From: Arcticibacter svalbardensis MN12-7
GTDB taxonomy: Bacteria; Bacteroidota; Bacteroidia; Sphingobacteriales; Sphingobacteriaceae
Assembly (NCBI RefSeq): GCF_000403135.1
Contig: NZ_AQPN01000103.1
Coordinates: 1 to 64,000, forward strand
Reading direction: 5' to 3'
Length of the DNA stretch: 64,000 bases
Shown here: positions 15,825 to 43,719 of the stretch, piece after piece
Layout: each line of letters begins with the position of its first letter
How positions within the stretch are numbered: position 1 is the stretch's first letter
Position numbers and translations under genes: made by a program
Notes under the pieces: generated by a model
Databases searched by the model: none
What the model was told of the DNA's origin: nothing
The model's input: only the letters and a program-made list of their open reading frames with translations

Positions 15825-17270
15825 ATGAGCAGTTTAAGGAAAACAACATTATCAGGATTGGTGTGGACGTTTAGTCAGCAGTTTGGCGTTCAGTTAATTA
15901 GTTTTGGTATTACGATTATTCTTGCCAGACTATTAGCACCATCTGAATTTGGTTTAATTGCGATGTTAACTGTTTTCATGGCTGCAGGAAGTGTTTTAGT
16001 GGATGGTGGTTTATCTTCCTCTTTAATCAGGTCAGATGATGTTACTCAACGGGATTACTCGACCGTGTTCTTCTTTAACTTAGTAGGAAGTATAGTCATA
16101 TATGCCCTGGTTTATTCACTGGCACCCTATATCGCACATTTTTATAAACAGGAAATTTTAATATCCGTGATTAGGGTATATGCAATCATATTTGTGATAA
16201 ATGCATTTTATGAAATTCAAAATGCCAGGTTAACAAAGGCCATGAATTTCAAAACCCAAACAATCATACAAGTACCTGCTGTTTTAGCTGGCGGACTGTT
16301 AGGCGTCATCATGGCTATGAACGGTTATGGCGTTTGGAGTCTGGTATGGATGAATATCCTACAATCATTTCTTACTACTGTTTTTCATTGGATATTATCG
16401 GGCTGGCGGCCTTCGCTGATCTTCGATAAGTCGAGTTTTAAGACTCATTTTAATTTTGGTTATAAAATGACTTTATCCGGTCTTCTGGAAATTATATACA
16501 AAAATATATATGTGCTTATTATAGGTAAGAATTATTCGGCTACACAACTGGGCTATTATTCCAGGGCAGATTCCCTTAGCCAGCTTCCTACAGGTAATAT
16601 AGCTACTGCGATGAATAAAGTAACCTATCCTATGTTTGCTTCCATTTCGCAGGATAACATCAGGTTAAAGATGGTATATAAGAAATTGATGCAGCAAGTG
16701 ATCTTTTGGAATGCAGCATGTCTGGTTTTGTTATATGTAATTGCGGAGCCCCTTTTCAGGTTCCTTATTACCGCAAGATGGTTGCCGGCAGTGCCCTATT
16801 TTAAGATTCTGTGTATTGCTGGAATACTTTACCCGCTCCATGCATATAATCTTAATATTCTGAAGGTAAAGGGCAGGAGTGACCTTCTTTTGAAATTGGA
16901 GGGTATTAAAAAAACGATCAGTATAGCAGGCATTTTTTGCGTAATCCCATTTGGGATCTATGGCTTACTGTATTTCCAGCTTTTATTCAATATAGTCGCT
17001 TGTTATATCAATTCTTTTTACAGTGGTAAAATGATTAATTATCCGGTTAAGGAGCAGCTTAAAGACATTTTTCCAACGTTGATTCTGTCTGCCGCTACCG
17101 GTATAGTATGTCATTATTTAGATAATTTTCTAGCGCATAGTTTACATCTTCCTGATCTTGGGAGACTCCTTATTGACTCATTTACCTTCTTTACTGTTTA
17201 CCTGGGCTTTAGTCACCTGGCCCAACTCGATGCTATATACGATTTTAAACAACTAATCTTAAGAAGATGA
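15825..17270 (+). CDS. Wzx-like oligosaccharide flippase (MOP superfamily)
   Basis: A 481-residue protein with 12-14 predicted membrane segments along its length. The start SSLRKTTLSGLVWTFSQQFG followed by IILARLLAPSEFGLIA is the typical beginning of the Polysacc_synt/MurJ-like flippases of the WzxC group. It would move the undecaprenyl-diphosphate-linked repeat unit from the cytoplasmic to the periplasmic face for polymerisation. Its stop overlaps the next gene by 4 bp (ATGA), so translation is probably coupled. Confidence 0.93.
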   Translation: MSSLRKTTLSGLVWTFSQQFGVQLISFGITIILARLLAPSEFGLIAMLTVFMAAGSVLVDGGLSSSLIRSDDVTQRDYSTVFFFNLVGSIVIYALVYSLAPYIAHFYKQEILISVIRVYAIIFVINAFYEIQNARLTKAMNFKTQTIIQVPAVLAGGLLGVIMAMNGYGVWSLVWMNILQSFLTTVFHWILSGWRPSLIFDKSSFKTHFNFGYKMTLSGLLEIIYKNIYVLIIGKNYSATQLGYYSRADSLSQLPTGNIATAMNKVTYPMFASISQDNIRLKMVYKKLMQQVIFWNAACLVLLYVIAEPLFRFLITARWLPAVPYFKILCIAGILYPLHAYNLNILKVKGRSDLLLKLEGIKKTISIAGIFCVIPFGIYGLLYFQLLFNIVACYINSFYSGKMINYPVKEQLKDIFPTLILSAATGIVCHYLDNFLAHSLHLPDLGRLLIDSFTFFTVYLGFSHLAQLDAIYDFKQLILRR

Positions 17271-18433
17271 TACCAGTTACAAAACCCTTTCTTCCTAAAG
17301 TAAAAGAATACGATGATTACGTAAATAGCATTTGGGAACGTCAATGGCTCACAAATAATGGCCCATTGGTGAATGAATTAGAGCTAAAATTGAAGGAGTA
17401 TCTTGATGTTAAACATCTACTCTATGTGTCGAATGGTACGATGGCTCTTCAGCTAGCGATAAAAGCCTTGGGATTGACGGGAGAAATTATTACCACTCCG
17501 TTTTCTTTTGTAGCGACTACCAGCAGTATTGTATGGCAGGGATGTACACCGGTTTTTACTGATATTGATCCGGAGACTTTTAACATTGATCCCCGAAAAA
17601 TAGAAGAAGCGATTACACCGGAAACATCCGCTATAGTGGCTACACATGTATATGGCAATCCATGTGATATTGATGCCATCCAAGCTATTGCGTCGCGGCA
17701 TAATATAAAAGTGATTTATGATGCGGCGCATTGTTTTGGCACCAAATATAAAAACAGGTCTGTGTATGAGTATGGCGATATCAGTACCACTAGTTTTCAT
17801 GCTACTAAGTTGTTTCATAGTATTGAAGGGGGAGCTGTGTTTACTCAATGTCCTGAGTTACTAAAGAAAATGGCTTTTATGCGAAATTTCGGACATAATG
17901 GTCCCAACGAGTTTACTGAGTTAGGCATCAATGCTAAAAATTCAGAATTCCATGCCGCTATGGGGTTATGTAACTTAAAACATGTGGATGAAATATTAGA
18001 AAAAAGGAAAAAGTTGTCTTTGTATTATTGGCAAAAGTTACAGTATCTGCAAGCAAAGTATCCCCGTCTTAATAATGATCTTGATTACAACTATGCTTAT
18101 TTCCCTGTGCTTTTTGATACAAAGGAGTTGATGCAACAGTGTTTAACCGCTTTAGAGGGCGAAAAGATTTATTGCCGCCGATATTTCTACCCTTCATTGG
18201 CATCCTTGCCTTACGTAAATTATACCTTTTTGCCTGTTTGTGAGTCTGTTGTAGAACGAATACTCTGTTTGCCGCTTTATCATACACTGACGTTTTCTGA
18301 CCTGGACCTCATTACAAGAATCATATTAAGGGTTCAGAATTACTTGCCTGATCAAACTATAAAGGAAGAAGTTCCGATTGCTATTGCACAAGAGATAGTC
18401 AGAATGTTATATACTGTAAATGGAAAAGTTTAA
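17267..18433 (+). CDS. DegT/DnrJ/EryC1/StrS-family sugar aminotransferase
   Basis: A 388-residue fold-type-I PLP enzyme. Substrate/PLP features include SNGTMALQLAIKALG near 57, ITTPFSFVATTSS near 80, YDAAHCFG near 163 (the Asp that pairs with the pyridine nitrogen) and the Schiff-base lysine in FHATKLFHSIEGG near 186. Family members transaminate nucleotide-linked 4-keto-6-deoxysugars (for example VioA/FdtB types on dTDP-sugars). No dTDP-rhamnose-type genes are in the window, while a UDP-GlcNAc 4,6-dehydratase-like gene is at 40332, so the donor may be UDP-linked. The start overlaps the flippase gene by 4 bp. Exact sugar unknown. Confidence 0.9.
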   Translation: MIPVTKPFLPKVKEYDDYVNSIWERQWLTNNGPLVNELELKLKEYLDVKHLLYVSNGTMALQLAIKALGLTGEIITTPFSFVATTSSIVWQGCTPVFTDIDPETFNIDPRKIEEAITPETSAIVATHVYGNPCDIDAIQAIASRHNIKVIYDAAHCFGTKYKNRSVYEYGDISTTSFHATKLFHSIEGGAVFTQCPELLKKMAFMRNFGHNGPNEFTELGINAKNSEFHAAMGLCNLKHVDEILEKRKKLSLYYWQKLQYLQAKYPRLNNDLDYNYAYFPVLFDTKELMQQCLTALEGEKIYCRRYFYPSLASLPYVNYTFLPVCESVVERILCLPLYHTLTFSDLDLITRIILRVQNYLPDQTIKEEVPIAIAQEIVRMLYTVNGKV

Positions 18434-20467: not shown

Positions 20468-20606
20468 ATCCTAAAATGCAAACTTTTCTAATCTGTTTAA
20501 AACCTGTACAATAGACTGGCCCTCGTCATTTATTTGAATAGTTACCGAGAGAATACTGATCGTGAGTGCAGTATCAAGTATTGTGGAATCTACAAAAATC
20601 AACCCT

Positions 20607-21848
20607 ATGAATATTCCCTTTTCTCCACCATTTATTGATCAATCCGTGATTGATCAGGTAGTTGATACGCTCCATTCAAAATGGATCACTTCGGGACCGA
20701 AAGTTAAGGCTCTGGAAACAGAGATTATGAACTTGACCGGTTCTAAGGCAGCGGTATGTGTAAATTCCTGGACTTCAGGCGCAATCATGATGTTGAAATG
20801 GTTTGGTGTGAAAGAAGGAGATGAAGTAATTGTTCCTGCTTATTCTTATTGTGCGACTGCTTTATGCGTTTTGAACTGCGGAGCAACACCTGTAATGGTG
20901 GATGTACTGGACGATTTTACAATAGATCCCAAAAAGATAAAAAAGGCCATAACAAGTAAAACGAAGGCCATTTTAGCTGTCGATATTGCTGGATGGCCTT
21001 GTCACTACGATAGTATCAATAAACTGATCAGAGATCCTGATATTAATAAACTGTTTGTTCCTGAGTCTGAAAAACAAGCAGCTATGGGCAGAATAATTTT
21101 GATTGCTGATGCTGCTCATTCCATTGGAGCTATCTATAAAGGCGTCCCTTCGGCTCAAAAAAGCGATATTGCTATTTTTTCTTTCCATGCTGTGAAAAAT
21201 ATTACTACAGCTGAAGGTGGATGCATCTGTCTGAATCTTCCTGTTATCTTTAATAATAAAGATGAATACAATTTTCTAAAGATCTTTTCCCTCAACGGAC
21301 AGAATAGAGATGCCTTCGCTAAAGCAATGGGTGCCAACTGGAGATACGACATCTTGTTTAAAGGTCTAAAAATCAATATGCCAGACATTTGTGCGGCAGT
21401 AGGACTCGCTCAGATTAGGCAATATCCAACACTTTTATTGCCGCTCAGAAAAAAAATTGCCATGAAGTATTGCCGCATGTTTAGCATGTTTCCCTGGTTT
21501 ATCCCTCCTGCATTGAAAGATCGAAATAGAGAATCCTCTTATCATTTGTTTCCTTTAAGGGTTAAAGGTATTACTGAAGCCGAAAGGGATGAGATAATTG
21601 ACTTCTTATTAAGTAAAGGCATAGTGGTGAATGTGCATTTTATACCCATGCCCATGCTTACGTACTTTAAAAGTATTGGATATGATATTGAAGATTATCC
21701 GAATAGCTACAAGCAATATTCATGCGAAATATCATTGCCCATTTATCCGCAGTTAACGAATGTGGAGGTTGATTATATTATAGAAAATACGATAGAAGCG
21801 GTTCAACTGCATTTGGAGAAAAGTAATTTAATAGAAATTGCATCTTAA
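20607..21848 (+). CDS. DegT/DnrJ/EryC1/StrS-family aminotransferase (PglE/WbpE-like)
   Basis: The ATG at 20607 (MNIPFSPPFIDQ) matches the usual start of the family and is preferred over a GTG 15 codons upstream at 20562. It encodes 413 residues. Features are GWITSGP-like KWITSGPKVKALE, VIVPAYSYCATALC, IADAAHSIG (pyridine-binding Asp) and the Schiff-base lysine in FSFHAVKNITTAEGG. Relatives convert UDP-4-keto-6-deoxy-sugars to 4-amino sugars (PglE) or 3-keto sugars to 3-amino sugars (WbpE). With the PglF-like dehydratase at 40332 and the GNAT at 38692 it could make a UDP-4-amino-6-deoxysugar. It abuts the initiating transferase gene without a gap, which supports its making that enzyme's substrate. 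Confidence 0.9.
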   Translation: MNIPFSPPFIDQSVIDQVVDTLHSKWITSGPKVKALETEIMNLTGSKAAVCVNSWTSGAIMMLKWFGVKEGDEVIVPAYSYCATALCVLNCGATPVMVDVLDDFTIDPKKIKKAITSKTKAILAVDIAGWPCHYDSINKLIRDPDINKLFVPESEKQAAMGRIILIADAAHSIGAIYKGVPSAQKSDIAIFSFHAVKNITTAEGGCICLNLPVIFNNKDEYNFLKIFSLNGQNRDAFAKAMGANWRYDILFKGLKINMPDICAAVGLAQIRQYPTLLLPLRKKIAMKYCRMFSMFPWFIPPALKDRNRESSYHLFPLRVKGITEAERDEIIDFLLSKGIVVNVHFIPMPMLTYFKSIGYDIEDYPNSYKQYSCEISLPIYPQLTNVEVDYIIENTIEAVQLHLEKSNLIEIAS

Positions 21849-22457
21849 ATGAAAGTCATGAGTAGTAAAAGAGTTTTTGATGTGCTGTTTTCGTTGTTAG
21901 GAATCATGTTGCTGATCCCTTTATTTGTACTGGTATCAATCTGTATCATGATAGATTCAAAAGGAGGGGTCCTGTATCGTCAAACCAGAATTGGACGCAA
22001 TAATGCAGCCTTCAGCTTATTGAAATTCAGGACTATGCGAATAGGTGCTGATCAGGCAGGAGAGTTGACAATCGGTCTCCGTGATAGTAGAATTACCCCA
22101 TTCGGATATTTTTTAAGAAAATACAAGATTGATGAACTGCCTCAATTGTTTAATATTTTAATCGGAGAAATGAGTTTTGTAGGGCCAAGGCCTGAGGTAA
22201 GCAAATATGTAAACCTATACGATGTACAGCAACAGCGGGTTTTAAGTGTAAAGCCGGGAATAACAGACTGGGCCTCTATTACTTATATAAATGAAAATCA
22301 GCTATTAGCAACATCAGCAAATCCTGAAACCTTCTATATCGAACAGGTGATCCCTGATAAGATTAAACAAAATTTAAAATATGTTGACCATCATAATTTT
22401 TGGATAGATATGAAGATCATCCTGTTAACTCTAAAGAATATTATGTTTAACCGCTAA
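21849..22457 (+). CDS. Initiating phosphoglycosyltransferase (PglC/WbaP-type sugar transferase)
   Basis: A 202-residue bacterial sugar transferase of the monotopic PGT class. It has a single hydrophobic re-entrant segment (about 11-33), the catalytic region GVLYRQTRIGRNNAAFSLLK then FRTM, DELPQLFNILIGEMSFVGPR and PEV. Its short length matches PglC rather than the longer WbaP or WcaJ forms with extra membrane helices. It transfers a phospho-sugar (likely a di-N-acetylated or 4-amino-6-deoxy sugar) to undecaprenyl phosphate to start the repeat unit. Its ATG directly follows the aminotransferase stop codon, with an internal ATG four codons later. Confidence 0.93.
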   Translation: MKVMSSKRVFDVLFSLLGIMLLIPLFVLVSICIMIDSKGGVLYRQTRIGRNNAAFSLLKFRTMRIGADQAGELTIGLRDSRITPFGYFLRKYKIDELPQLFNILIGEMSFVGPRPEVSKYVNLYDVQQQRVLSVKPGITDWASITYINENQLLATSANPETFYIEQVIPDKIKQNLKYVDHHNFWIDMKIILLTLKNIMFNR

Positions 22458-22491: not shown

Positions 22492-23568
22492 ATGAAAAAA
22501 ATTAAAATATTAGATTGGCCAGCCCAGCGGTTTTACTGCGAAACACATCCCTTTTATCGTTGGAAAGAACAACTTAAGGAAAGAGGATATGAGGTAAAAT
22601 GCTATCATAATCACTTACATAAAGAGTTGAAAGAAGCTGATTATTTAATTCTACATTCCCGTTATTTTAATCCCGGATGGCAAAGTATTCATGATCGTAA
22701 TCAGCAAAATGAAGAAGAGCTGATTGCATATCTTCTTCAAATAAAAAAGGCGAATGGAAAGCTGATCTGGTTTGATGCTGCAGACTCTTCTGGTTCAAGT
22801 GATTTTCCAATTATTCCTTTTATCGATGTCTTTTTAAAAAAGCAAATTCTAAAAGACAAGGAATATTATACAGTCCCTCATGTAAATAATAATTTGAGAA
22901 TATGGATTGATCGTGATGAGTTTGGCACTTCATCGTTTCAGCCATGCCCTGTAAACCAGCTTCATAAAATAAAAGTGGGATGGAATTTAGGATTGAATGA
23001 CTATCGTTATTTTGGTTACAAGATGAGCAGGTTAAGCAATTATTTAAATTACAGCTTATACCCGATTAAGTTTAGTCAGGTTGCCGAAACCAGACCTTTG
23101 GATTTAACCTTTAGAGGTACCATTCACTATGAAAAAAGCGGACCAGACAGGGTATCAGAACAACGAAACAAAGTGCTGACCTATCTGAAGAATGTGAGCA
23201 TGAAGGTTGCAAGCGGACCAGTAATACCAAAAAAAAGCTATTGGAAAGAGTTACGAAACTCAAAGTTATGTATTAGTCCTTTTGGATGGGGAGAAGTTTG
23301 TTACCGTGACTTTGAATCATTTATTTCAGGAGCATTGCTTATTAAACCATCTATGGATCATTTGATTACTTATCCGGATATGTACGTTCCTAATGAAACT
23401 TATATTTCTGTTAAATGGAATCTGGACGATTTGCCTGAAAAACTAGAACATATTAAAAATAATTTTTCAGACTACAAGCACATTGCCATCCATGGACAGG
23501 AAAGGTATAAAAAAGTGGTGAATGATCCTGAAACATTCATTAATACGCTCTTAAGCGCTATCAATTGA
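22492..23568 (+). CDS. Divergent glycosyltransferase (GT-B-like, Glyco_trans_1_2 type)
   Basis: A 358-residue soluble protein. I do not recognise a close family. The C-terminal third carries LCISPFGWGEVCYRDFESFI then SGALLIKP, which resembles the donor-binding region of family-1/exostosin-like transferases, where an acidic residue (here Glu) contacts the nucleotide sugar. The N-terminal half begins KIKILDWPAQRFYCETHPFY and contains YLILHSRYF. No membrane segment or signal peptide is seen. The neighbours (initiating transferase and polymerase) support a role as a repeat-unit transferase. Confidence 0.7.
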   Translation: MKKIKILDWPAQRFYCETHPFYRWKEQLKERGYEVKCYHNHLHKELKEADYLILHSRYFNPGWQSIHDRNQQNEEELIAYLLQIKKANGKLIWFDAADSSGSSDFPIIPFIDVFLKKQILKDKEYYTVPHVNNNLRIWIDRDEFGTSSFQPCPVNQLHKIKVGWNLGLNDYRYFGYKMSRLSNYLNYSLYPIKFSQVAETRPLDLTFRGTIHYEKSGPDRVSEQRNKVLTYLKNVSMKVASGPVIPKKSYWKELRNSKLCISPFGWGEVCYRDFESFISGALLIKPSMDHLITYPDMYVPNETYISVKWNLDDLPEKLEHIKNNFSDYKHIAIHGQERYKKVVNDPETFINTLLSAIN

Positions 23569-32706: not shown

Positions 32707-33102
32707 ATACGTATTTTATGAATTTGCATTTCAAAATATGACAGAAAAATTACATTTTCAAGCTGAAATTCAATTATTTATATTAGAATCTCCCTTTATA
32801 AATACAATAAATTTATTTATTTTATATAATTTAATTTTTTTTTAACAGTTTTTAACAAGAAACAATTTTTCCAATTGTTTAGTAACAATATTAATACCCC
32901 AATTTTGTTTAATTAAAGCCATTTAAAAATTACATAGATGATAATTTAATTTCTATGCAAATGAAAATTTAGTTTAACTTAATTGCAATTTTCATATTTA
33001 ATACGAGTTTCTTTAACAAAATTGCTGTTTTTTCCTATTTTTTTTGATGTAACTGTTGCTCTTTATAATTCGTTAAAGAGGCATACATTAATTAAAGATC
33101 AG
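32707..33102. other. 396-bp very A+T-rich leader before the lyase gene
   Basis: This gap is far richer in A+T than its surroundings, with runs of T and A around 32831-32845. It contains a small hairpin (AAACAATT at 32860-32867, AATTGTTT at 32873-32880) but no terminator T-run after it and no convincing gene. A TTG-initiated extension of the lyase frame reaches 32983 but reads low-complexity sequence. The stretch probably holds an independent promoter and a long 5-prime leader for the lyase gene. Confidence 0.45.
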
Positions 33103-34470
33103 ATGAAACCGGAGAACAGCTTAAAAAGAAAAGTTAAAATGTCCACGCTATTACTAGCAATTATTCTATTTACTCAATGTCATAAAAGTAACGAAGATCA
33201 GTTAGTTGCAAATGTTAATGAAATCAGTGCAACCTCTACTGCAACTGCTGAAGTTGCAAAAACTTTAGTCCTGTCAAGCGCAACAAAAGACGCTGGGTAT
33301 GCTTACTATTTGGAACCCAAACTTACAATAACAGGAGACAGCCCTACAAAACCTTCAAATTCTACACTTAAAATATATGAAAACGGAAAACTACTAGGAG
33401 CCGCACATTCTTTACATAGAGATATCAGAAATGTAGGAAAAGGTAAATTCAGCCATTGGGATACTGGTTTATACTTCTCATCATCTGACAATAGTGATCC
33501 TCGAACTAACGGTAGGACCTATACCTATACCACTGGAACCACAACTGCAGTAGCTGCTCCGGTAGCACAAACACCTCCTGCATCATCAACAGGCAGCTCC
33601 CCAATAGGTTTTGCTTCTGTTGATGGATCAACAACAGGTGGTAAAGCTGGCAAAACCATTACGGTGAGTAATTTGAACGATCTTAAAAGGGCTGCTGTAT
33701 CTTCCGATCCTTTGGTAATTCAAATATCTGGAAGTATTACAGGTACGGGTATGATTGAGGTTAAATCAAATAAAACTTTTATTGGCTTAGAAGGAGCTGT
33801 TCTTAACGGAACAGGATTGTCTATCTGGGGTGTAAGCAATGTTATTGTTAAAAACCTAAAGATCAATAAAGTGGTTGGTGCCGACTGTATCACTATTAAA
33901 GGTGGTTCAAACCATGTTTGGGTAGACCATTGTGAACTTTGGCAAGACAGAACGCATGGATGGGATTATTATGATGAATTGCTTGAAGTAACCGATCGGT
34001 CTGATTATGTAACAATCTCCTGGAATGAATTCCATGATACGAACATTGCGCTGCTCATTGGTAGTGGAGATCAACAAACCACAGATATTGGCCATCTTCG
34101 GGTAACACTATACGGGAATTATTTCAAAAACATATCTGAAAGACAACCCTGCACACGGTTCGGTTACATGCATTGCTTCAATAATTATCTTGCCAATGGT
34201 AGTGGATATGGAATTGGGGTAACGATGAATGCAACGGTAAGAACCGATAATAACTATTTCGAAGGGCAGCATATCCCGATTTACACCGAATTTAATGCAA
34301 AACCAGGTGTAGTCAGTGGAGCAAGTACCAACATTTATAAAAATTGCGGACCTAATATTATATCAACAAGCGCATCAAGCTGGGTGCCTTCTTACGAATA
34401 TAAATCTGTACTTATTGCTGCTGCTGATGTACCAGCAAAGGTGCTCAGTGAGGCAGGTCCCAATTACTAA
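33103..34470 (+). CDS. Polysaccharide lyase family 1 (pectate-lyase-like) lipoprotein
   Basis: The ATG at 33103 is chosen because it yields a lipoprotein signal (lipidated Cys26 in LFTQC); the upstream TTG adds 40 residues of poor quality. The protein has 455 residues. An N-terminal beta-rich module of unknown type (about 50-140) is followed by a Thr/Pro/Ser linker (about 140-165) and a right-handed beta-helix lyase domain (about 165-455). Family motifs include HVWVDHCEL, DEYYDELLEV-like DYYDELLEVTDRSDYVTISW, and RQPCTRFGYMHCFNNY with the catalytic Arg region. It should cleave polygalacturonate-like polymers by beta-elimination at the cell surface. Located among EPS genes, it may trim or release the polymer made here. 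Confidence 0.9.
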   Translation: MKPENSLKRKVKMSTLLLAIILFTQCHKSNEDQLVANVNEISATSTATAEVAKTLVLSSATKDAGYAYYLEPKLTITGDSPTKPSNSTLKIYENGKLLGAAHSLHRDIRNVGKGKFSHWDTGLYFSSSDNSDPRTNGRTYTYTTGTTTAVAAPVAQTPPASSTGSSPIGFASVDGSTTGGKAGKTITVSNLNDLKRAAVSSDPLVIQISGSITGTGMIEVKSNKTFIGLEGAVLNGTGLSIWGVSNVIVKNLKINKVVGADCITIKGGSNHVWVDHCELWQDRTHGWDYYDELLEVTDRSDYVTISWNEFHDTNIALLIGSGDQQTTDIGHLRVTLYGNYFKNISERQPCTRFGYMHCFNNYLANGSGYGIGVTMNATVRTDNNYFEGQHIPIYTEFNAKPGVVSGASTNIYKNCGPNIISTSASSWVPSYEYKSVLIAAADVPAKVLSEAGPNY

Positions 34471-34581: not shown

Positions 34582-35742
34582 TTGAAACCAAAACGAAATA
34601 AGATCCTGATTGCTTGCGACTCTTCGCGCTCTTTGCTTGATTTCAGAGGAAAGCTCATGGAAGAGTTATTAGTGAACCATGATGTATGTGTATTTACTCC
34701 AAAAATCCATCAAAGCCATGTCAGAAATACACTTGAGCGCTTGGGCATTTCCATCTATGAAAACGATCTGAACGGAAGTAATGTTTCCCTTTTTTCAGAT
34801 CTCGCTTATATCATTAAGCTGTTCAAATTGATGCGCTCTTTGAAGCCTGATGTATTTTTCCCATATACCTTTAAACCGGTGATCTATGGCACCCTGGTAG
34901 CAAACTTTTTCCATGTAAACCGTATCGCTCCCATGCTTACAGGTTTAGGCTATAGCTTTTTGAATACTAATAATAAGAAGCAAATAATCAAGCTAATAAC
35001 CAAGACCTTGTTAAGGATTAGTTTAAAAGCAAATAACCGAACTTCGCTTATCCTTCAAAACAAAGATGATTATAACACGCTGATTCAGGCTGGAATTATT
35101 AACGCAAATCACGCTGCACATATAGTCAATGGCTCTGGTGTCGATCTCTCTCATTATGACTATTCAGAACCTGAACCCAGCAATTTGAACTTTTTAATGA
35201 TATCCCGATTGATCAATGCAAAAGGAGTGAACGAATATTATGAAGCTGCAACAATAATCCTTCAAGACCACCCCAATGTTCAATTTACATTAATTGGCGC
35301 TTACGATCCTAATGTAGATGCCATTGATGCCGTGCTATACAATAAGATCATAAAGGGGAATGTGATCGATTATAAGGGTGAGGTGGACGATGTGAGACCT
35401 TTTATCAAGGCCTGTTCTGTTGTCGTTTTACCTTCCTTCTATGGCGAAGGCGTACCTCGATGTATTCTTGAAGGAATGGCGATGGGAAGAGCTGTCATTA
35501 CCAGTGATTCGGTAGGATGCAGAGAAACGATCAATCTTTCATCCGATCAGCCAAGTGGCTTTTTGGTGCCCATAAAAAATGCAACTTGCTTAGCCGAAAA
35601 AATGCTTCATTTTATTCTGAATCCATCACATATCATTTTTTACGGGAAAAATGGAAGAGCATATGCCTTTGAGAAATTTGATGTCCATAAAGTAAACCGC
35701 AAAATGCTTCAAATACTGGAAGGTCCTGCTGTTTTTGCCTGA
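34582..35742 (+). CDS. Family 4 (GT-B) glycosyltransferase (PglA/CapM-like)
   Basis: A 386-residue GT4 enzyme starting at TTG; there is no in-frame ATG before the conserved N-terminus (NKILIACDSSRSLLDFRGKL). MLTGLGYSFLN near 113 and the donor region GEGVPRCILEGMAMGRAVIT then SDSVGCRE near 294 match transferases that add the second sugar to a bacillosamine- or QuiNAc-type initiating residue. This is consistent with the PglC-like and PglF-like genes in the locus, though the match is by pattern only. It follows the terminator of the lyase gene and therefore needs its own promoter or antitermination by the UpxY protein. Confidence 0.88.
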   Translation: MKPKRNKILIACDSSRSLLDFRGKLMEELLVNHDVCVFTPKIHQSHVRNTLERLGISIYENDLNGSNVSLFSDLAYIIKLFKLMRSLKPDVFFPYTFKPVIYGTLVANFFHVNRIAPMLTGLGYSFLNTNNKKQIIKLITKTLLRISLKANNRTSLILQNKDDYNTLIQAGIINANHAAHIVNGSGVDLSHYDYSEPEPSNLNFLMISRLINAKGVNEYYEAATIILQDHPNVQFTLIGAYDPNVDAIDAVLYNKIIKGNVIDYKGEVDDVRPFIKACSVVVLPSFYGEGVPRCILEGMAMGRAVITSDSVGCRETINLSSDQPSGFLVPIKNATCLAEKMLHFILNPSHIIFYGKNGRAYAFEKFDVHKVNRKMLQILEGPAVFA

Positions 35743-35779: not shown

Positions 35780-36814
35780 ATGCGTATAATGACTAATTCC
35801 GTTATTACACAAAAAGAGGAGTGGACAAATTATCTAAACAAATCTTATACTTATGACTTTTGTCATACCTGGCATTACCACTCGCTCAGCAAAATAGGGT
35901 ATCCTTTGCTCTTTGTTTATCATCAACAGGATGACTTTATTGCTGTGCCCTTGCTCAAGAGATCCATAAAAAGCACTGATCTATTTGATTTAACATCTGT
36001 TTATGGTTATTCAGGTCCTGTCTCGAATAAATCATTTAATGCTATTCAAGAAGAGATGATGCTAAATTTCGAGCATTCCTTTAAAGAATTTATGAAGGCT
36101 GAGCGTTGCATCTGTGTGTTTTCAAGGTTAAATCCATTTATTGGCCAATCGGCTTTGCTGCAGCGAATTGGGTCTGTTTGCTGTAATGGTAAAACCATAT
36201 ACATGGATCTTCAACAGTCGCTAGAAGAACAAAGAGCTAAATATAATAAGCGATTACTGCGTCAGATCAGGCAGCTAAGAAAAGAAAATTACGAAATAAA
36301 AGAGCACGATAGTCAACATGAAATAAAGGTTTTTACCCGGATGTATAAGGAAAATATGGATCGTTTATCCGCATCAAAGGACTACTATTTCGATGAAGAC
36401 TACTTTTTCAAAATACTTCAAACCAAGGAATTCAACAGTAAACTAGTGCTGGTATATCATGGAACGGAAATGATCTGCGGGGCAGTAATCATATGCTCCA
36501 TGAATGTGATTCGAAATCATCTATCCGCCACAAACAAAGATTATCTGAAAGAATCGCCAAGTAAACTACTCACAGATGAAATTAGTGTAGTAGGCCGTCA
36601 AATGGGAATGAAATACTTTCATCTTGGCGGAGGAGTAGGAGGCAAGGAAGATTCCCTGTTCGCCTTCAAAGCATCTTTCTCCAATCTTTATCTAGACGAT
36701 CATCTCTGGTGTTTAATTGCTGATCAGGAAGCATACCAATTCTTAGTGAACAAAGGGAAAATAGAAGTCGATAACGGTTATTTCCCTTTGTATCGTACAG
36801 TACCCATTTATTAA
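35780..36814 (+). CDS. FemAB-like/GNAT-fold acyltransferase, copy 1
   Basis: A 344-residue protein with the double-GNAT layout of FemABX-like transferases. The N-terminal half has FCHTWHYHSLSKIG and DFIAVPLLKR. The middle has KYNKRLLRQIRQLRKEN (helical, basic). The C-terminal half carries the core SKLLTDEISVVGRQMGMKYF and LGGGVGGKEDSLFAFKASFS. A second ATG at 35789 aligns better with the start of copy 2 at 39253. Classical Fem proteins transfer amino acids from aminoacyl-tRNA; relatives use acyl-CoA. In this EPS locus a role in N-acylation or amino-acylation of an amino sugar is inferred. Copy 2 is clearly paralogous along its whole length. Confidence 0.78.
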   Translation: MRIMTNSVITQKEEWTNYLNKSYTYDFCHTWHYHSLSKIGYPLLFVYHQQDDFIAVPLLKRSIKSTDLFDLTSVYGYSGPVSNKSFNAIQEEMMLNFEHSFKEFMKAERCICVFSRLNPFIGQSALLQRIGSVCCNGKTIYMDLQQSLEEQRAKYNKRLLRQIRQLRKENYEIKEHDSQHEIKVFTRMYKENMDRLSASKDYYFDEDYFFKILQTKEFNSKLVLVYHGTEMICGAVIICSMNVIRNHLSATNKDYLKESPSKLLTDEISVVGRQMGMKYFHLGGGVGGKEDSLFAFKASFSNLYLDDHLWCLIADQEAYQFLVNKGKIEVDNGYFPLYRTVPIY

Positions 36815-36908
36815 ACCAACAACAAGCCTGATTCATATTATAATGCTCATCTAAGAGCACTGATTTATTGCTGCATAATTTCGCTAACCTGCTTAAATTT
36901 TAATCGTA

Positions 36909-37712
36909 ATGGAAAATAAATTTGACTACTCCCAGTCTTCTGTTCCATCCTTTATGCAATCTATTGATGGTTTTGGATGGGTTATTTACGAAAACGTATT
37001 AGAGCCCAAATTTATCGATGAGATCAACGATTCACTTGAAGAGGCTTATGAAAAAAGAAGGCAAATTCAGGTAAATAATGGGATTCATAGTAATATGGAA
37101 GGCACCCTTCACCATCTCCTGGAAAAGGATAATTTCGGATCCCGCTTTTTAGAAAAAATGTATTTCGATGAAGAGATGAAGGCTTTTCTTGGAGGCAACT
37201 ATATCTTAAATTCTTTTGGAGGTGTGATGAATTCTAAAAATACAAAACCTTATGTGCAGAACATCCACCGAGATGTCAGGAGCTTTTGGGAAAAGGAAAA
37301 AATGATGATTCAGATGATGGTTCTGCTGGACGATTTTACACTGGCTAACGGTGCTACCTATATGTTATCCGGTTCGCATAAAACAGGAGAAAAGCCGGAT
37401 GAGGAAAAATTCTATCAACATGCCGATAGGGCAGTCGCCAAAAGGGGAAGCATCATTTTATTCGATTCCAATCTATGGCATGCCGCAGGCAAAAATACCA
37501 CCGAAGGTAACCGGAGAGTTTTAACTCTTGGTTTTACACGTCCTTATTTTAAACAGCAAATGGACTATCCCCGCAGTCTGGGATACGAATATGGAGAAAG
37601 TCTGAGTGACAACTTAAGGCAAGTAATAGGCTATAAATCAAGGATACCCGAAAATCTTTATGAGTTTTATCAACCATTAGAAAAACGCATGTATCAACCC
37701 GGACAAGGATAA
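36909..37712 (+). CDS. PhyH-family Fe(II)/2-oxoglutarate-dependent dioxygenase
   Basis: A 267-residue phytanoyl-CoA-dioxygenase-like protein. The iron ligands are visible: HRD near 120-122 and the distal His in FDSNLWHAAGKN near 190, with the 2-oxoglutarate-binding Arg following in GNRRVLTLGF. The N-terminus (GFGWVIYENVLEPKFIDEIN) is typical of the family. It would hydroxylate a small molecule or a sugar-linked acyl group. Position between two FemAB-like acyltransferases suggests the substrate may be the acyl/aminoacyl group or its nucleotide-sugar carrier; this is inference. It lies 94 bp after copy 1 and 11 bp before the next gene. Confidence 0.9.
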   Translation: MENKFDYSQSSVPSFMQSIDGFGWVIYENVLEPKFIDEINDSLEEAYEKRRQIQVNNGIHSNMEGTLHHLLEKDNFGSRFLEKMYFDEEMKAFLGGNYILNSFGGVMNSKNTKPYVQNIHRDVRSFWEKEKMMIQMMVLLDDFTLANGATYMLSGSHKTGEKPDEEKFYQHADRAVAKRGSIILFDSNLWHAAGKNTTEGNRRVLTLGFTRPYFKQQMDYPRSLGYEYGESLSDNLRQVIGYKSRIPENLYEFYQPLEKRMYQPGQG

Positions 37713-37723
37713 TAATCATCTTC

Positions 37724-38695
37724 ATGCGAACTCATCCGAAACGATCAAAGGCAATTGGTGGCTACTTAGAAATGCAACTTCCTAAAGGGGAAGAGTACTA
37801 CCCATCATTAATTAAGTTAAATACGGGAAGAAATGCCCTGGAATATATATTAAAAGTGAATAAATATTCTTTAATATATATCCCTTATTACACCTGTGAA
37901 GTGTTGCTTGAACCAATTAAAAAAAGCAGGATTCCCTATAGCTTCTATACCATTGATCAAAACCTGGATCCTGTAATCGATTTCTATATTGCCCCTACAG
38001 AGTGTTTTTTATATACCAATTACTTCGGAATTAAACAGTTAACCGTTCAAAGATTAAGCGGGCAAATGCAAAATCTGGTAATTGATAATTCGCAGGCTTT
38101 TTTTTCAGAACCACTAGCCGGTATTGATACCTTTTATTCCTGCAGGAAATTCTTTGGCGTTCCCGATGGCGCCTATTTGCAGAGCAATACCATCAGTAAT
38201 CTGAAATTTGAAAGAGATGTTTCCTATAACAGAGTGTCACATCTGGTAAAAAGTATTGATTTGGATATAGAGGACGGGTATGAGGACTTTATTGAAAACA
38301 ATATGGTTCTTACTAACAATCCAATTAAAACGATGTCAGTTCTTACACAATCCATCTTATCCGGGATCGACTATGAAGATTGTGCACGAATCCGAAATCG
38401 AAATTTTCGCATTTTACATCAAGCACTTTCTGGAAAAAACAAACTGGTATTAAATCCCGATGACAGTTACGCTCCAATGTCTTATCCGTTTTTAATAGAA
38501 AAAAATACGGTACAAAAAAAGCTAATCAACAAAAGAATCTATATCCCAACTTATTGGCCCAATGTCTTAAAGTGGACCACTCCTAAGATGTTCGAAAATT
38601 ATCTATGTATCCATCTACTTGCGTTACCTATAGATCACCGACTTAATGACAATGATATGAATCGAATAATCAGCTATATAAACCTACTTATATGA
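37724..38695 (+). CDS. Short, divergent DegT-like PLP-dependent protein
   Basis: A 323-residue protein whose layout follows fold-type-I PLP enzymes but with little family identity. LNTGRNALEYILKVN corresponds to the substrate-binding N-terminus, IYIPYYTCEVLLEPI to the TPFxF region, LVIDNSQAFFSEP to the Asp-containing strand that pairs with the PLP ring, and FYSCRKFFGVPDGAYL to the Schiff-base lysine loop. Those two key residues (Asp and Lys) are present, so it may be active. It is about 60-80 residues shorter than ordinary DegT proteins. The next gene overlaps by 4 bp and encodes a GNAT acetyltransferase, suggesting a two-step amino-sugar modification. Confidence 0.72.
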   Translation: MRTHPKRSKAIGGYLEMQLPKGEEYYPSLIKLNTGRNALEYILKVNKYSLIYIPYYTCEVLLEPIKKSRIPYSFYTIDQNLDPVIDFYIAPTECFLYTNYFGIKQLTVQRLSGQMQNLVIDNSQAFFSEPLAGIDTFYSCRKFFGVPDGAYLQSNTISNLKFERDVSYNRVSHLVKSIDLDIEDGYEDFIENNMVLTNNPIKTMSVLTQSILSGIDYEDCARIRNRNFRILHQALSGKNKLVLNPDDSYAPMSYPFLIEKNTVQKKLINKRIYIPTYWPNVLKWTTPKMFENYLCIHLLALPIDHRLNDNDMNRIISYINLLI

Positions 38696-39219
38696 ACAAT
38701 TTAATCTACTTGAGAGCACTCCACCAGGATGATGCTAAAACTTCTTATGCCTGGCGCAATAACCCTTTAATATGGGAATTTACCAAGTTTCGAGCGGCAC
38801 GACACATTACATTTGAGATCGAAAGCGCATGGATCAAAAATGTAATCAATAAGGACAATGAGTACAGGTTTGCAATTTGTATGAAAGAAGACGGACGTTA
38901 TATAGGAAACGTACAACTCATTGATTTAAAAGAGCACTCAGCGGAATTTCATCTTTTTATTGGCGATGTATCCTATTGGGGAAAGGGTATTGGAAAAGAA
39001 GCTACCGATCTGATCCTTCAATACGGGTTTATAAATCTTGGCCTTAAATTTATCTATCTTCAAGTTCATAGAGAAAATTTACCAGCAATGTCTATTTATA
39101 AGAAGATTGGTTTTGTAGTGGTTAACAATACCGAAGAGTTTATAGATATGGAAATTCAACGAGAAAGTTATCAAACAGTGATTATTCCCAACGACTTAAG
39201 CGATGTTTCAGCCGCTTAA
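38692..39219 (+). CDS. GNAT N-acetyltransferase (RimJ/PseH-like)
   Basis: A 175-residue acetyltransferase: LRALHQDDAKTSYAWRNNPL at the start, GDVSYWGKGIGKEATDLILQ for the acetyl-CoA pyrophosphate loop, and the terminal LQVHRENLPAMSIYKKIGF typical of the family. Members such as PseH acetylate 4-amino groups of UDP-amino-sugars, which fits the adjacent PLP protein (4-bp overlap) and the dehydratase two genes on. Amino-acid acetylation cannot be excluded. Confidence 0.9.
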   Translation: MNNLIYLRALHQDDAKTSYAWRNNPLIWEFTKFRAARHITFEIESAWIKNVINKDNEYRFAICMKEDGRYIGNVQLIDLKEHSAEFHLFIGDVSYWGKGIGKEATDLILQYGFINLGLKFIYLQVHRENLPAMSIYKKIGFVVVNNTEEFIDMEIQRESYQTVIIPNDLSDVSAA

Positions 39220-39252
39220 TAGCATTCCAAAGCACAAACCATATATAACCAT

Positions 39253-40302
39253 ATGATTTCTTTAATTACTGTTTTCCAAAAGAGGGATTGGACAAATTAT
39301 GTTCAACAATCACTACAGTATGATTTTTACCATACCTGGTATTATCATTCTCTGATCAAAGACGACGAGCCAATCTTATTTGTCTTACATGAAGGAGATG
39401 ATTTTATAGCCTTTCCTCTGCTAAAAAGGAAGATTCCGAATTCTGATCTCTACGATCTTACTTGTGTTTATGGTTATACCGGCCCTATCTCAAATAGACG
39501 GCTTGATGATCTGCCAGCTCAGATGATGGATGATTTTAAATCTGAATTTTTGCACTATCTAAAGGGGGAAAAGATTGTTTCCGTCTTCTCACGCCTGCAC
39601 CCGTTTTTTCATCAGATTCCCTTAATGAAACATTTTGAAGGCGTTTGCGATAACGGAAAAGTGGTTATTCTCGATCTGCAGTTGCCTTTGGAAGAGCAAC
39701 GATCAAAATATCAAAAAAGGGTATTAGAAAAAATCAGACAATTGAGAAGGCATGGCTTTGAAGTAAAAGAAGCACACAGTCAACACGATATTAGTGCATT
39801 TGTAGCGATTTATACGGAAAATATGATTCGCATAGGAGCGACTGATTTTTACCTCTTTAATGAGGAATACTTCGAAGATCTACTAAGCTCAACTGAATTC
39901 GATAGTAAATTACTCATGGTGTACCACAACGGCGAACCTGTATGTGGCTCTGTTATAATATGTACACAAAATATCGTACAAGCACATCTTTTAGGCACAC
40001 GAACAGACTATTTTAGGGACTCTCCAGCAAAATTACTTACTGATGAAATTAGCATTATAGGTCGCCAGTTGGGCATGCATTACTTCAATCTTGGCGGAGG
40101 AGTAGGATTTAAAGAAGACTCTTTGTTTTTATGGAAGTCCGCTTTCTCCAGTAAGTCCCTTGATTTTAAAAGCTGGCGCTATATTGCTGATTTAGAAAAG
40201 TACAACGCCTTAGTCAATGAAGCAAACATAGATCCCGAATTAAATGTAGATTATTTCCCCTTATACCGTTATCACAACCCACAGGCAAAACTCTATTCCT
40301 GA
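39253..40302 (+). CDS. FemAB-like/GNAT-fold acyltransferase, copy 2
   Basis: A 349-residue paralogue of the protein at 35780-36814, aligned from the first strand to the end: FYHTWYYHSLIKDD, FIAFPLLKRK, YGYTGPISNRR, RVLEKIRQLRRHGFEVKEAH and the near-identical AKLLTDEISIIGRQLGMHYF followed by LGGGVGFKEDSLF. The nucleotide sequences also remain recognisably alike, but many substitutions have accumulated, so the duplication is not recent. The two copies bracket the PhyH, PLP and GNAT genes. Distinct acyl groups or acceptor positions for the two copies are a plausible reason for their retention. Confidence 0.78.
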   Translation: MISLITVFQKRDWTNYVQQSLQYDFYHTWYYHSLIKDDEPILFVLHEGDDFIAFPLLKRKIPNSDLYDLTCVYGYTGPISNRRLDDLPAQMMDDFKSEFLHYLKGEKIVSVFSRLHPFFHQIPLMKHFEGVCDNGKVVILDLQLPLEEQRSKYQKRVLEKIRQLRRHGFEVKEAHSQHDISAFVAIYTENMIRIGATDFYLFNEEYFEDLLSSTEFDSKLLMVYHNGEPVCGSVIICTQNIVQAHLLGTRTDYFRDSPAKLLTDEISIIGRQLGMHYFNLGGGVGFKEDSLFLWKSAFSSKSLDFKSWRYIADLEKYNALVNEANIDPELNVDYFPLYRYHNPQAKLYS

Positions 40303-40331: not shown

Positions 40332-42281
40332 ATGAAGAAAGTATTATTTTGCGAAAAGGCCTATTCCCGGTGGCTTATTCTATTTATTGATCTTTTTATT
40401 ATTAACTGGGCATTTTCACTCTCCTATTTCATCACCTATAAATTTCAATACAATGAAATATTTCAGGATGGATTTATTCGTATGCTGGCCTTTTACAATA
40501 TCGTTTCCTTAATGGTGTTTTTATCCTTGCGTATTCACACTGGAATCATCCGGTATTCGAATACAGAGGACATCTTCCGGATCTTTAAAGCCTTAATGAT
40601 CAGTAGCGTTTTGTTTTGGGCAGCCAGCAAATTATTCATCATCCCTTATCTGACTCCCGAACTAAAGGTAATTGATGTCATCACTATCCTTAACTTTTTT
40701 ACCGCTACCTCCTTGCTGATCATTTTAAGGACAGTGGTGAAAGGAATGTTTGCCTACCTCAAGGAGCTGGAATTAGAGAATTGTGAAAATGTATTAATCT
40801 ATGGATCAGATAAAAAGGCCCTTTTAATTAAACAAGCGTTTGAGTTTTCTCCTGTGAAACATTATCGAATTTTAGGCTTTATTGATAACAACGAAGATCG
40901 AATCGATAAATACATTGAGCAGAAAAAAGTCTATTCGCCGCACTCTATTGAGTCACTCCGTCGCAAGTTTGGTATCGAAAAAATGGTGATCATGAACGAC
41001 TCATTAAATCAGGAGAGTCAGAAGATGGCAGTTGAAACCTGTATCAAACTGGGCATAAAAGTAATCGCTGTTCCCCCATCAACCGAGTGGGTGAATGGAA
41101 GACTCAGTTTAAATCAAATCAGGGATCTTAAAATAGAAGATCTTTTGCAACGTGATCCTATCATTCTTCAAAAGGATAATGTTTCCAGGGAGCTTTCAGG
41201 CAAACGGATCTTAGTTACCGGAGCAGCAGGCTCTATCGGAGCAGAAATAGTCAGGCAGCTTTTTAGCTATAACCCCGCTTCATTAATTCTCTGCGACCAG
41301 GCAGAAACCCCTTTACATGAATTGCAATTGGATATAGAAGATCATTTTCCAGGTCTTAAAGCTACTATCTGCATGGTGAATATCCAAAATGAAAAACGTC
41401 TGAGACACCTGTTTTCGACTTATAATCCTCAAATTGTGTTCCATGCCGCCGCATTTAAACATGTGCCCATGATGGAAGGTAATCCTTCAGAAGCCATATT
41501 AACCAATGTACTAGGAACAAAAAACCTGGCCGATCTCGCAGTAGAATTTAAAGTGGAAAAGTTTATCATGATCTCTACCGATAAAGCAGTAAACCCTACC
41601 AATGTGATGGGTGCGTCAAAATGCCTTGCGGAGATGTATATTCAATCGTTGAATTTCTACCAGTTAAGGACCCATCCTATTGAAGAAATTCTTCAGACAC
41701 CCGGCTATCAAGCCTCAGCAACCAAGTTTATTACCACCAGATTTGGTAATGTTTTAGGCTCTAATGGATCAGTGGTGCCACGTTTTAAAGAGCAAATAGA
41801 AAGGGGCGGACCTGTCACCGTTACCCACCCTGAAATTACCCGGTTTTTCATGACTATACCCGAATCCGTGCAGCTAGTACTCGAAGCATCAGCTATGGGA
41901 AAAGGAGGGGAGATTTTTATATTTGATATGGGAAAACCAATCCGGATAGTGGATATGGCGATAAAAATGATTCGCCTTGCAGGCCTATCACCCGATCAGG
42001 ATATTAAAATTGTATATACCGGTTTAAGGCCGGGAGAGAAACTTTACGAAGAACTTCTGAATAAAGAAGAGCTCGTGATGCCAACTTATCATGCCAAGAT
42101 TAAAATATCAAAAGGGATGCACTGCCAATTCTCATTTGTAAAGAAATCCATTGACGAATTACTGGTAATAAATCATATGGGTGATGATGTAGCGATGGTA
42201 AAAAAGATGAAGGAAATTGTTCCAGGATTTAAAAGCAATAATTCCGTCTACCATGAACTGGATAACCTGGTACTGAATTAA
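40332..42281 (+). CDS. Membrane nucleotide-sugar 4,6-dehydratase (PglF/CapD/WbpM-like)
   Basis: A 649-residue protein with four N-terminal membrane helices (about 10-130), a first Rossmann domain (about 150-250, VLIYGSDKKALLIKQAFE) and a C-terminal catalytic SDR domain (about 285-580) starting ILVTGAAGSIGAEIVRQL. AAFKHVPMMEGNP, STDKAVNPTNVMGASK and RFGNVLGSNGSVVP are diagnostic for UDP-GlcNAc 4,6-dehydratases of this group. The active-site Tyr is replaced by Met (NVMGASK), as is usual in the membrane PglF/WbpM class. It makes UDP-4-keto-6-deoxy-GlcNAc, the likely substrate of the aminotransferases in the locus. It is the last gene of the EPS block. Confidence 0.92.
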   Translation: MKKVLFCEKAYSRWLILFIDLFIINWAFSLSYFITYKFQYNEIFQDGFIRMLAFYNIVSLMVFLSLRIHTGIIRYSNTEDIFRIFKALMISSVLFWAASKLFIIPYLTPELKVIDVITILNFFTATSLLIILRTVVKGMFAYLKELELENCENVLIYGSDKKALLIKQAFEFSPVKHYRILGFIDNNEDRIDKYIEQKKVYSPHSIESLRRKFGIEKMVIMNDSLNQESQKMAVETCIKLGIKVIAVPPSTEWVNGRLSLNQIRDLKIEDLLQRDPIILQKDNVSRELSGKRILVTGAAGSIGAEIVRQLFSYNPASLILCDQAETPLHELQLDIEDHFPGLKATICMVNIQNEKRLRHLFSTYNPQIVFHAAAFKHVPMMEGNPSEAILTNVLGTKNLADLAVEFKVEKFIMISTDKAVNPTNVMGASKCLAEMYIQSLNFYQLRTHPIEEILQTPGYQASATKFITTRFGNVLGSNGSVVPRFKEQIERGGPVTVTHPEITRFFMTIPESVQLVLEASAMGKGGEIFIFDMGKPIRIVDMAIKMIRLAGLSPDQDIKIVYTGLRPGEKLYEELLNKEELVMPTYHAKIKISKGMHCQFSFVKKSIDELLVINHMGDDVAMVKKMKEIVPGFKSNNSVYHELDNLVLN

Positions 42282-42633: not shown

Positions 42634-43719
42634 ATGAAAACAGGTACTTCAGCAATTCTCATTCTTTTAACAGCTTGCTCTTTACAGGCACAAACAAAGG
42701 CACCAGACGATAGCTTTAAGCTCAATCAGATTCAAGTGATTGGATCCCATAACAGTTATAAACAGGCTATTGAACCTGCATTATTCAAACTTATCCAGGC
42801 TAAAGATTCAACTAACCGTTTAGGTGGATTACAGTATGAGCATATTGCCATTACTGAGCAGCTTAATATGGGTCTGCGAAACTTGGAAATCGATGTCTAT
42901 GCTGACAGTAAAGGTGGTAAATATGCACATCCAAAGGGACTGGACTTAGTTAAGCCAGACCAACCCTATGACACAGCAGGTGTGATGAACCAACCCGGAT
43001 TTAAAGTATTACACGTCCCCGATATTGATTTCAGAAGTTCAAGTCTTACATTTGATGACTGCCTCCAGAAATTGAAGAACTGGTCGAACTCAAATCCAGG
43101 CCACATCCCTGTATTTATTACATTAGAACCCAAGGATGGCGAGAAAAACCGTTTTGGAACCACACCCGAAGCTTTTACACCAGCACTATTCGATGAGCTA
43201 GACGCCGTAATCCGTGAAAAGTTAGGTATAGATAAACTCATTACACCAGATATGGTAAGAGGCAATTTTAAAACTTTGGAAGAAGCGGTATTAAACGGTA
43301 ACTGGCCTAATCTTAAACAAGCCAAAGGTAAATTCTTATTTATTCTGGATAACAGTGATAAAAAGCGCGATCTCTATATGCAGGACCATCCCTCATTAAA
43401 AGGACGATTAATATTTGTCAATGCTGAACCAGGAAAACCCGAAGCCGCTACACTCTTCAGGAATAATTCAGCAGATCCGACCATTCCAGAACTAGTCACA
43501 AAAGGATATATTATCCGTACACGTGCAGATTCAGATACTAAGGAAGCCCGTGCCAATGATTACACCCACTTTAAACAAGCACAAAATTCAGGTGCACAAA
43601 TTATCACGACTGACTATTATAAGCCAAGTGCTTTTTTCCATTCTCCTTATCATATCATTTTTGAGGATGGTTCTTATGTGCGAAAAAATCATTTATTTGA
43701 AAAACTTAACATCAAGTAG
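42634..43719 (+). CDS. Secreted Ca2+-dependent phosphoinositide phospholipase C-like protein
   Basis: A 361-residue exported protein (signal peptide 1-20, ending SLQAQ). The catalytic-domain start QIQVIGSHNSYKQ supplies the first catalytic His39. GLRNLEIDVYAD gives the calcium-binding Glu/Asp cluster, and PGFKVLHVPDIDFRSSS follows. The layout fits the Ca2+-dependent PI-PLC-C1 family of secreted bacterial proteins, not the cytoplasmic glycerophosphodiester phosphodiesterases. Substrates could be phosphatidylinositol-type or other glycerophospholipids. It runs convergent to the metallophosphoesterase at 43725, with 5 bp between stops, and together they suggest phosphate or head-group release. 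Confidence 0.85.
   Translation: MKTGTSAILILLTACSLQAQTKAPDDSFKLNQIQVIGSHNSYKQAIEPALFKLIQAKDSTNRLGGLQYEHIAITEQLNMGLRNLEIDVYADSKGGKYAHPKGLDLVKPDQPYDTAGVMNQPGFKVLHVPDIDFRSSSLTFDDCLQKLKNWSNSNPGHIPVFITLEPKDGEKNRFGTTPEAFTPALFDELDAVIREKLGIDKLITPDMVRGNFKTLEEAVLNGNWPNLKQAKGKFLFILDNSDKKRDLYMQDHPSLKGRLIFVNAEPGKPEAATLFRNNSADPTIPELVTKGYIIRTRADSDTKEARANDYTHFKQAQNSGAQIITTDYYKPSAFFHSPYHIIFEDGSYVRKNHLFEKLNIK

Follow-up and report, generated by a model that had tools for sequence, protein, structure and literature searches.

What would two FemAB-like acyltransferases be doing inside an exopolysaccharide (EPS) locus? The question is raised by a 64,000-nucleotide stretch of Arcticibacter svalbardensis MN12-7 (contig NZ_AQPN01000103.1, positions 1 to 64,000; hereafter the window), in which a preliminary description had pictured five genes as a module that acylates an amino sugar of the EPS: two FemAB-like transferases (FEM1 and FEM2) bracketing a PhyH-family hydroxylase, a short pyridoxal phosphate (PLP) protein and a GNAT acetyltransferase. 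We propose that the module makes an amino sugar of the EPS and N-aminoacylates it in a tRNA-dependent reaction, with acetyl capping and hydroxylation, a reading that on balance we consider probable. It draws on gene content, conservation, folds, active-site residues and co-inheritance, from which the donor, the sugar acceptor, the transfer of an amino acid and the order of steps are predicted.

The five-gene module

The surrounding genes make up a complete EPS locus of the Wza/Wzc/Wzx/Wzy type (10825-42281), and the module is located towards its end. The five open reading frames (ORFs) at 35780-40302 are intact and all on the + strand, as the preliminary description had them:

35780..36814, + strand: FEM1, FemX-fold (double GNAT) transferase, predicted aminoacyl-tRNA:amino-sugar transferase (fold, profile, motifs)
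36909..37712, + strand: PhyH-family Fe(II)/2-oxoglutarate hydroxylase, HxD...H present, coupled to FEM1 (Pfam, alignment, tree)
37724..38695, + strand: short divergent enzyme with a predicted DegT fold, PLP-dependent, Lys142 invariant (fold, alignment)
38692..39219, + strand: GNAT N-acetyltransferase, PseH-like, coenzyme A (CoA) loop WGKGIG (Pfam, NCBIfam, motif)
39253..40302, + strand: FEM2, paralogue of FEM1 in a different ancient clade, forming the core together with the PLP protein (tree, gene order)

The genes are packed as in an operon, with intergenic gaps of 11-94 bp and a GNAT start that overlaps the PLP stop by 4 bp. The two FEM proteins share 53% identity across 332 residues, and a search of the genome at E<=0.001 revealed no further copy. 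No tRNA gene that could form a local part of the module lies within the window.

Conservation and gene order

Among 201 Sphingobacteriaceae genomes, with PLP proteins counted by full-length matches, the PLP gene is present in 26, FEM in 32 and both in 22, and in all 22 the two are neighbours (Fisher 6e-18 for co-occurrence, with relatedness ignored). Chance clustering of the module genes is rejected by these co-occurrence and gene-order counts. The distribution of FEM is patchy (32/201 family genomes, 17/395 phylum genomes), and 10 of the 32 FEM-carrying family genomes have no PLP gene; FEM genes without an adjacent PLP gene often stand beside sugar transferase, DegT and CapD genes. In a second set of 80 loci around the PLP gene of named species, FEM adjoins PLP in 56, of which 51 also have PhyH, 51 CapD and 45 GNAT. 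The exact five-gene order, which had been suggested as a thing to look for in other Bacteroidota, recurs in 11 of the 80 loci, the order PHYH-PLP-GNAT-FEM in 42 and FEM-CapD in 53. The closest named relative is Arcticibacter eurypsychrophilus, whose PLP protein is 92% identical.

The symmetric bracket of the preliminary description is present as a pair of genes, but it does not behave as a single unit: the module consists of a PLP+FEM2 core and a separable FEM1+PhyH pair. PLP and FEM2 are taken as the core because PLP-FEM pairs also exist as orphans, lacking the remaining genes and lying outside EPS loci (L080/L149 in Pedobacter quisquiliarum, and L155), while the FEM1+PhyH pair is also found at other genome positions (L096-L099, L118). 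In a tree of 105 FEM proteins, all FEM1-type proteins (defined as those encoded directly upstream of PhyH) are set apart from the rest by a single branch with support 100/100, and FEM2-type proteins form a separate, well supported group. A recent duplication in this genome is rejected, each protein being in its own clade; the tree and the FEM1-PhyH pairing indicate that FEM1 and FEM2 are old specialised paralogues, FEM1 being tied to the hydroxylase. The PhyH proteins that adjoin FEM1 likewise form nearly one clade, with one exception (FastTree, midpoint root).

Predicted donor of the FEM proteins

Both FEM proteins match Pfam Acetyltransf_6, and their sequence profile finds FemX at E 1.5e-5 and Sbb17 more weakly. 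They miss the cut-off of the XrtA/PEP-CTERM FemAB family (TIGR03019; 24 bits vs 260). The AlphaFold model of FEM1 (predicted local distance difference test, pLDDT, 94.9) has a tandem GNAT fold that aligns with FemX, FemA, Sbb17 and Sba18 over 275-308 residues at Z 23.6-26.1. The best folds, all aminoacyl-tRNA-dependent, are FemX (6snr, Z 26.1), Sbb17/Sba18 (Z 24.1) and FemA (Z 23.9); weaker ones are MprF (Z 19) and MprF-related synthases (down to about 16), and CoA-dependent tandem GNATs reach Z of about 15-16 (VipF, Z 16.3). Sbb17 and Sba18, whose structures were solved with the amino sugar compound streptothrisamine, are about 14-15% identical. The catalytic lysine of FemX, Lys305 (PMC12945691), aligns with FEM K297, which is invariant (55/55). 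The CoA pyrophosphate loop motif, sought by a regular expression near the SPxK site, occurs in none of 55 FEM proteins vs 43 of 47 neighbouring GNATs. The position of FemX Arg211, which we take to be a ligand of the uridine diphosphate (UDP) phosphates in UDP-MurNAc-pentapeptide binding, is variable in the FEM alignment; this is consistent with an acceptor other than that of FemX and does not argue against the chemistry.

Aminoacyl-tRNA is preferred to acyl-CoA as the predicted donor on the strength of the nearest folds, the conservation of the FemX lysine and the lack of a CoA loop. The structure prediction proposed earlier for the donor pocket thus bears on one half of the initial suggestion of an acyl or aminoacyl group: the aminoacyl half is strengthened and acyl-CoA is disfavoured, FEM1 being modelled nearest to aminoacyl-tRNA-dependent folds.

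We regard it as unlikely that FEM1 and FEM2 are instead acyl-CoA- or acyl carrier protein-dependent N-acyltransferases that place a (hydroxylated) fatty acyl group on the amino sugar, with PhyH hydroxylating the acyl chain. Some PhyH family members do hydroxylate acyl-CoAs, and other PLP loci contain ketoacyl synthase III (KAS III) and short-chain dehydrogenase/reductase (SDR) enzymes for short acyl chains, but these KAS III/SDR loci surround PLP genes without FEM, and no FEM locus viewed there adjoins KAS III. Such chemistry would also suit the 3,5-dihydroxyhexanoyl group on Qui2NAc4N of the Flavobacterium psychrophilum O-antigen (PMC6519341) and the description of the FemX-like protein HfsK as an N-acetyltransferase (PMC5362036); set against it are the absence of the CoA loop from all 55 FEM proteins and the wide Z gap that separates the nearest folds, all of aminoacyl-tRNA enzymes, from the CoA-dependent ones.

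The short PLP protein, PhyH and GNAT

Neither Pfam nor NCBIfam recognizes the short PLP protein, which does not reach the score of PF01041 (DegT) and whose profile finds no credible match in the PDB by sequence; the assignment came from the fold only. Its model (pLDDT 93.3) matches the DegT fold at Z of about 22-23.5 over 263-274 aligned residues, ArnB, DesV, WecE and PglE being among the matches. Residues K142, D121 and Q124 are invariant (48/48), with the roles of K142 (Schiff-base lysine) and D121 (PLP aspartate) assigned from the family motif, and the protein has 323 residues vs about 360-370 in most solved DegT relatives. The short divergent PLP protein of the preliminary description is therefore confirmed and, by its model, refined to a divergent DegT sugar-aminotransferase fold.

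PhyH is a clear member of its Pfam family (E=1e-22, 81.7 bits vs a cut-off of 22) and conserves the iron triad and distal arginine (H120 41/42, D122 42/42, H191 40/42, R202/R203 42/42). Its best PDB match is DhiD, and a comparison of PhyH relatives gave no pointer to the identity of the amino acid. The GNAT belongs to Acetyltransf_3 (E=2.5e-22); we call it PseH-like only, because it falls below the PseH equivalog cut-off of TIGR03585 (60.4 bits vs 93.1).

Apparent exchange of FEM with WbqC and ATP-grasp enzymes

Outside loci of the Sphingobacteriaceae type, the PLP gene occurs in the arrangement DegT1-WbqC-PLP-(GNAT, formyltransferase, or KAS III + SDR)-GT2. WbqC stands beside the PLP gene in none of the 56 FEM loci vs 13 of the 24 non-FEM loci of the named-species set; in the family sample, WbqC matches above 200 bits occur only in four genomes with PLP and without FEM. 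Both types are found within two genera (g17, g21). The partners of the PLP gene outside FEM loci include enzymes that form amides or supply acyl groups (ATP-grasp, formyltransferase, KAS III + SDR, GNAT). We infer that FEM stands in for WbqC or ATP-grasp; because amides are what ATP-grasp and formyltransferase enzymes make, this replacement points to amide formation on an amino sugar.

Two further arrangements were observed. Gut Bacteroidales (L172:8787-12210, L173 and relatives) have the order DegT-ATP-grasp-PLP-ATP-grasp, with ligases replacing WbqC and GNAT, and a Proteus mirabilis record (L224:6124-9966) has DegT-GT2-WbqC-PLP in a gammaproteobacterial polysaccharide locus. WbqC itself gave no credible PDB match by sequence. 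Its gene name presumably comes from an O-antigen with N-acylglycyl Qui4N, which serves as a lead only.

It is less likely still that WbqC, ATP-grasp and FEM are not equivalents, and that FEM and the short DegT protein have different sugars as substrates, their adjacency reflecting no more than membership of the same EPS gene set. The occurrence of FEM1+PhyH elsewhere in some genomes and of FEM without PLP in the 10 family genomes noted above would fit this explanation. PLP and FEM are nevertheless adjacent in every genome that carries both, orphan PLP-FEM pairs persist outside EPS loci, and a distant PLP homologue adjoins FEM in Priestia and also in Bacteroidota of other families.

The last alternative, that the FEM proteins modify peptidoglycan stem peptides like classical FemABX, with which they have the FemX fold and the catalytic lysine in common, is highly improbable and was rejected on genomic context and the variable Arg211 position (with its role as assumed above), no FEM locus having been seen among peptidoglycan genes across those examined and the presence of FEM being patchy in both family and phylum. 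Had the genes mostly occurred apart from EPS loci, the original idea of an EPS amino sugar as the target would have failed; almost all Bacteroidota FEM loci examined are inside polysaccharide loci, the orphan pairs being the exceptions, and this context supports the EPS amino sugar over peptidoglycan, with substrate and chemistry predicted.

Relatives beyond Sphingobacteriaceae

FEM genes with sugar transferase, DegT and CapD neighbours extend to Fusobacteriota, Bacillota and Deinococcota: in Cetobacterium, Priestia and Deinococcus, FEM relatives adjoin a CapD-type dehydratase, an aminotransferase and a (PglC-like) sugar transferase, and the same neighbours recur in distant Bacteroidota. Between GNAT and FEM, Priestia has a 365-residue hypothetical protein that matches the PLP profile (E 1.4e-26); the 320-residue DegT beside the Deinococcus FEM matches it weakly. 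A few distant relatives have an unclear context, among them an Azospirillum FEM whose surroundings differ. As the same neighbours recur beyond the phylum, the association of FEM with a bacillosamine-type pathway probably predates the Sphingobacteriaceae arrangement. A separate observation is an 889-residue ORF (L213:9548-12214) in which an FAD/NAD(P)-binding domain is joined to a FEM-like one; PglD-like and sugar transferase genes lie next to it.

A predicted pathway

The genes that would supply and use the sugar are in the same EPS locus:

40332..42281, + strand: CapD/PglF-like UDP-sugar 4,6-dehydratase, directly 3' of FEM2, position conserved (Pfam/NCBIfam, gene order)
17267..18433, + strand: DegT1, sugar C-4-type aminotransferase, adjoining the PLP gene in other Bacteroidota (family search, neighbourhoods)
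20562..21848, + strand: DegT2, PseC-like aminotransferase (family search)
21849..22457, + strand: bacterial sugar transferase, PglC/WcaJ-type initiating phosphoglycosyl transferase (Pfam)
34582..35742, + strand: GT4 glycosyltransferase, conserved immediately 5' of the module (Pfam, neighbourhoods)

The dehydratase, the aminotransferase at 20562-21848 and the initiating transferase are Pfam matches below equivalog cut-offs, and no ORF scanned in the EPS locus has a Pfam match to a PglD-type hexapeptide acetyltransferase. DegT1 is in the same locus as the PLP gene in 24 of 25 DegT1-carrying genomes, mostly about 14-20 kb away and elsewhere at <1 kb.

In the proposed scheme, the CapD/PglF-like dehydratase would provide the substrate from which DegT1, DegT2 and the short DegT-fold protein produce a 4-amino-4,6-dideoxy (or 2,4-diamino) sugar nucleotide. 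FEM2 would transfer an amino acid from aminoacyl-tRNA to the sugar amino group, in place of PglD of the diacetylbacillosamine pathway, and the PseH-like GNAT may acetyl-cap a free amine, either that of the sugar or that of the newly added aminoacyl group. FEM1 would add a second aminoacyl group or act on another amino sugar, with its partner PhyH hydroxylating the aminoacyl group that FEM1 adds; if aminoacyl-tRNA is the donor, hydroxylation would most likely follow transfer.

A broader and undescribed route may lie behind these arrangements: FemX-fold and short DegT-fold enzymes would divert aminoacyl-tRNA into surface polysaccharide by N-aminoacylating a precursor amino sugar, exchanging with WbqC/ATP-grasp as amide-forming equivalents, and in Sphingobacteriaceae a second FEM-PhyH pair would add hydroxylated amino acids. 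This generalization is a reasonable possibility that we put forward tentatively.

Several points weigh against the aminoacylation scheme. The identity of the sugar is a guess that relies on similarities, below equivalog cut-offs, to aminotransferases and dehydratases, and no EPS structure for these strains was found in the open-access literature. In Sphingobacteriaceae the PLP gene lies far from DegT1. Likeness of fold is no proof of the donor, and FEM2 scores 12.5 bits vs 24 required for Pfam FemAB (PF02388), with FEM1 unlisted, so both are filed as FemX-fold relatives rather than FemAB proper. Clade membership accounts for part of the separation between WbqC and FEM loci, and the replacement of WbqC by FEM is only suggestive because no biochemical function of WbqC was found described in open-access papers. 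A further such point is that HfsK, a FemX-like holdfast protein, is described as an N-acetyltransferase with no established donor (PMC5362036).

Comparison with known systems

FemX and FemA resemble the FEM proteins in double-GNAT fold (Z 24-26), in catalytic lysine and in the lack of a CoA loop; they differ in that the module has an EPS context, does not conserve the Arg211 position and falls below the Pfam FemAB cut-off. By analogy, the closest functional counterpart of the proposed FEM reaction would be Orf11/Sbb17/Sba18, which are tRNA-dependent, are structurally near (Sbb17/Sba18, Z 24) and use an amino sugar compound as acceptor, the tRNA-dependent aminoacylation of streptothrisamine by a FemX-like enzyme having been reviewed in PMC12945691. 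They belong, however, to actinomycete natural-product pathways, with an acceptor that is neither a nucleotide- nor a lipid-linked sugar. HfsK of Caulobacter crescentus is FemX-like and thought to modify an extracellular polysaccharide, but it acts in holdfast biogenesis under cyclic di-GMP control, and the available part of its description names no PLP, PhyH or GNAT partners (PMC5362036).

The dehydratase, aminotransferase and initiating transferase of the PglF-PglE-PglD-PglC pathway have counterparts here beside FEM, and the Qui2NAc4NR O-antigen of F. psychrophilum, with its variable C-4 N-acyl group, offers a Bacteroidota precedent with PglD homologues (PMC6519341). In those systems PglD homologues transfer the acyl group, whereas here FEM stands in that position together with a short DegT protein and PhyH. 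The DegT-WbqC-PLP modules of other Bacteroidota and of the Proteus record share a homologous short DegT, DegT1 and often GNAT, but have WbqC or ATP-grasp instead of FEM, no PhyH and, in Bacteroidota loci, no adjacent CapD.

Other features of the locus

Besides the export proteins Wza and Wzc, the EPS locus encodes NusG, a flippase, a Wzy-like protein, an epimerase, several glycosyltransferases and asparagine-synthase-like amidotransferases. Of the last, the second gene, AsnB2 (29703-31591), is split into two ORFs by one A missing from an A run; the frame is open in A. eurypsychrophilus (L100), and the split in the window is either a sequencing or assembly error or a genuinely broken gene. A pectate-lyase-like beta-helix protein (32983-34470), matched by a protein of similar length in the same slot in most relatives, may be a lyase dedicated to the EPS. 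A 358-residue protein without Pfam or NCBIfam match (22492-23568), conserved in another family member (L099), is encoded between the initiating transferase and the Wzy-like gene, and 3' of the locus a protein resembling Ca2+-dependent phosphoinositide phospholipase C is encoded (42634-43719).

Significance

Bacterial glycans, among them many O-antigens and capsules, are known to contain N-aminoacyl amino sugars, some of them N-acetylated, and N-acetylated aminoacyl groups occur on Qui4N, e.g., in Vibrio cholerae O43 (PMC10609480). No enzyme family for amide-linking amino acids to amino sugars was found in the open-access literature, and open-access papers gave nothing usable on WbqC, on Qui4N-glycine loci or on FemAB within clusters for O-antigen or capsule. 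The FEM module is a concrete, widely distributed candidate family for the aminoacylation of surface sugars, and it offers a specific donor prediction and a testable idea for the function of WbqC. If true, it would link the tRNA pool to the chemistry of slime and capsules.

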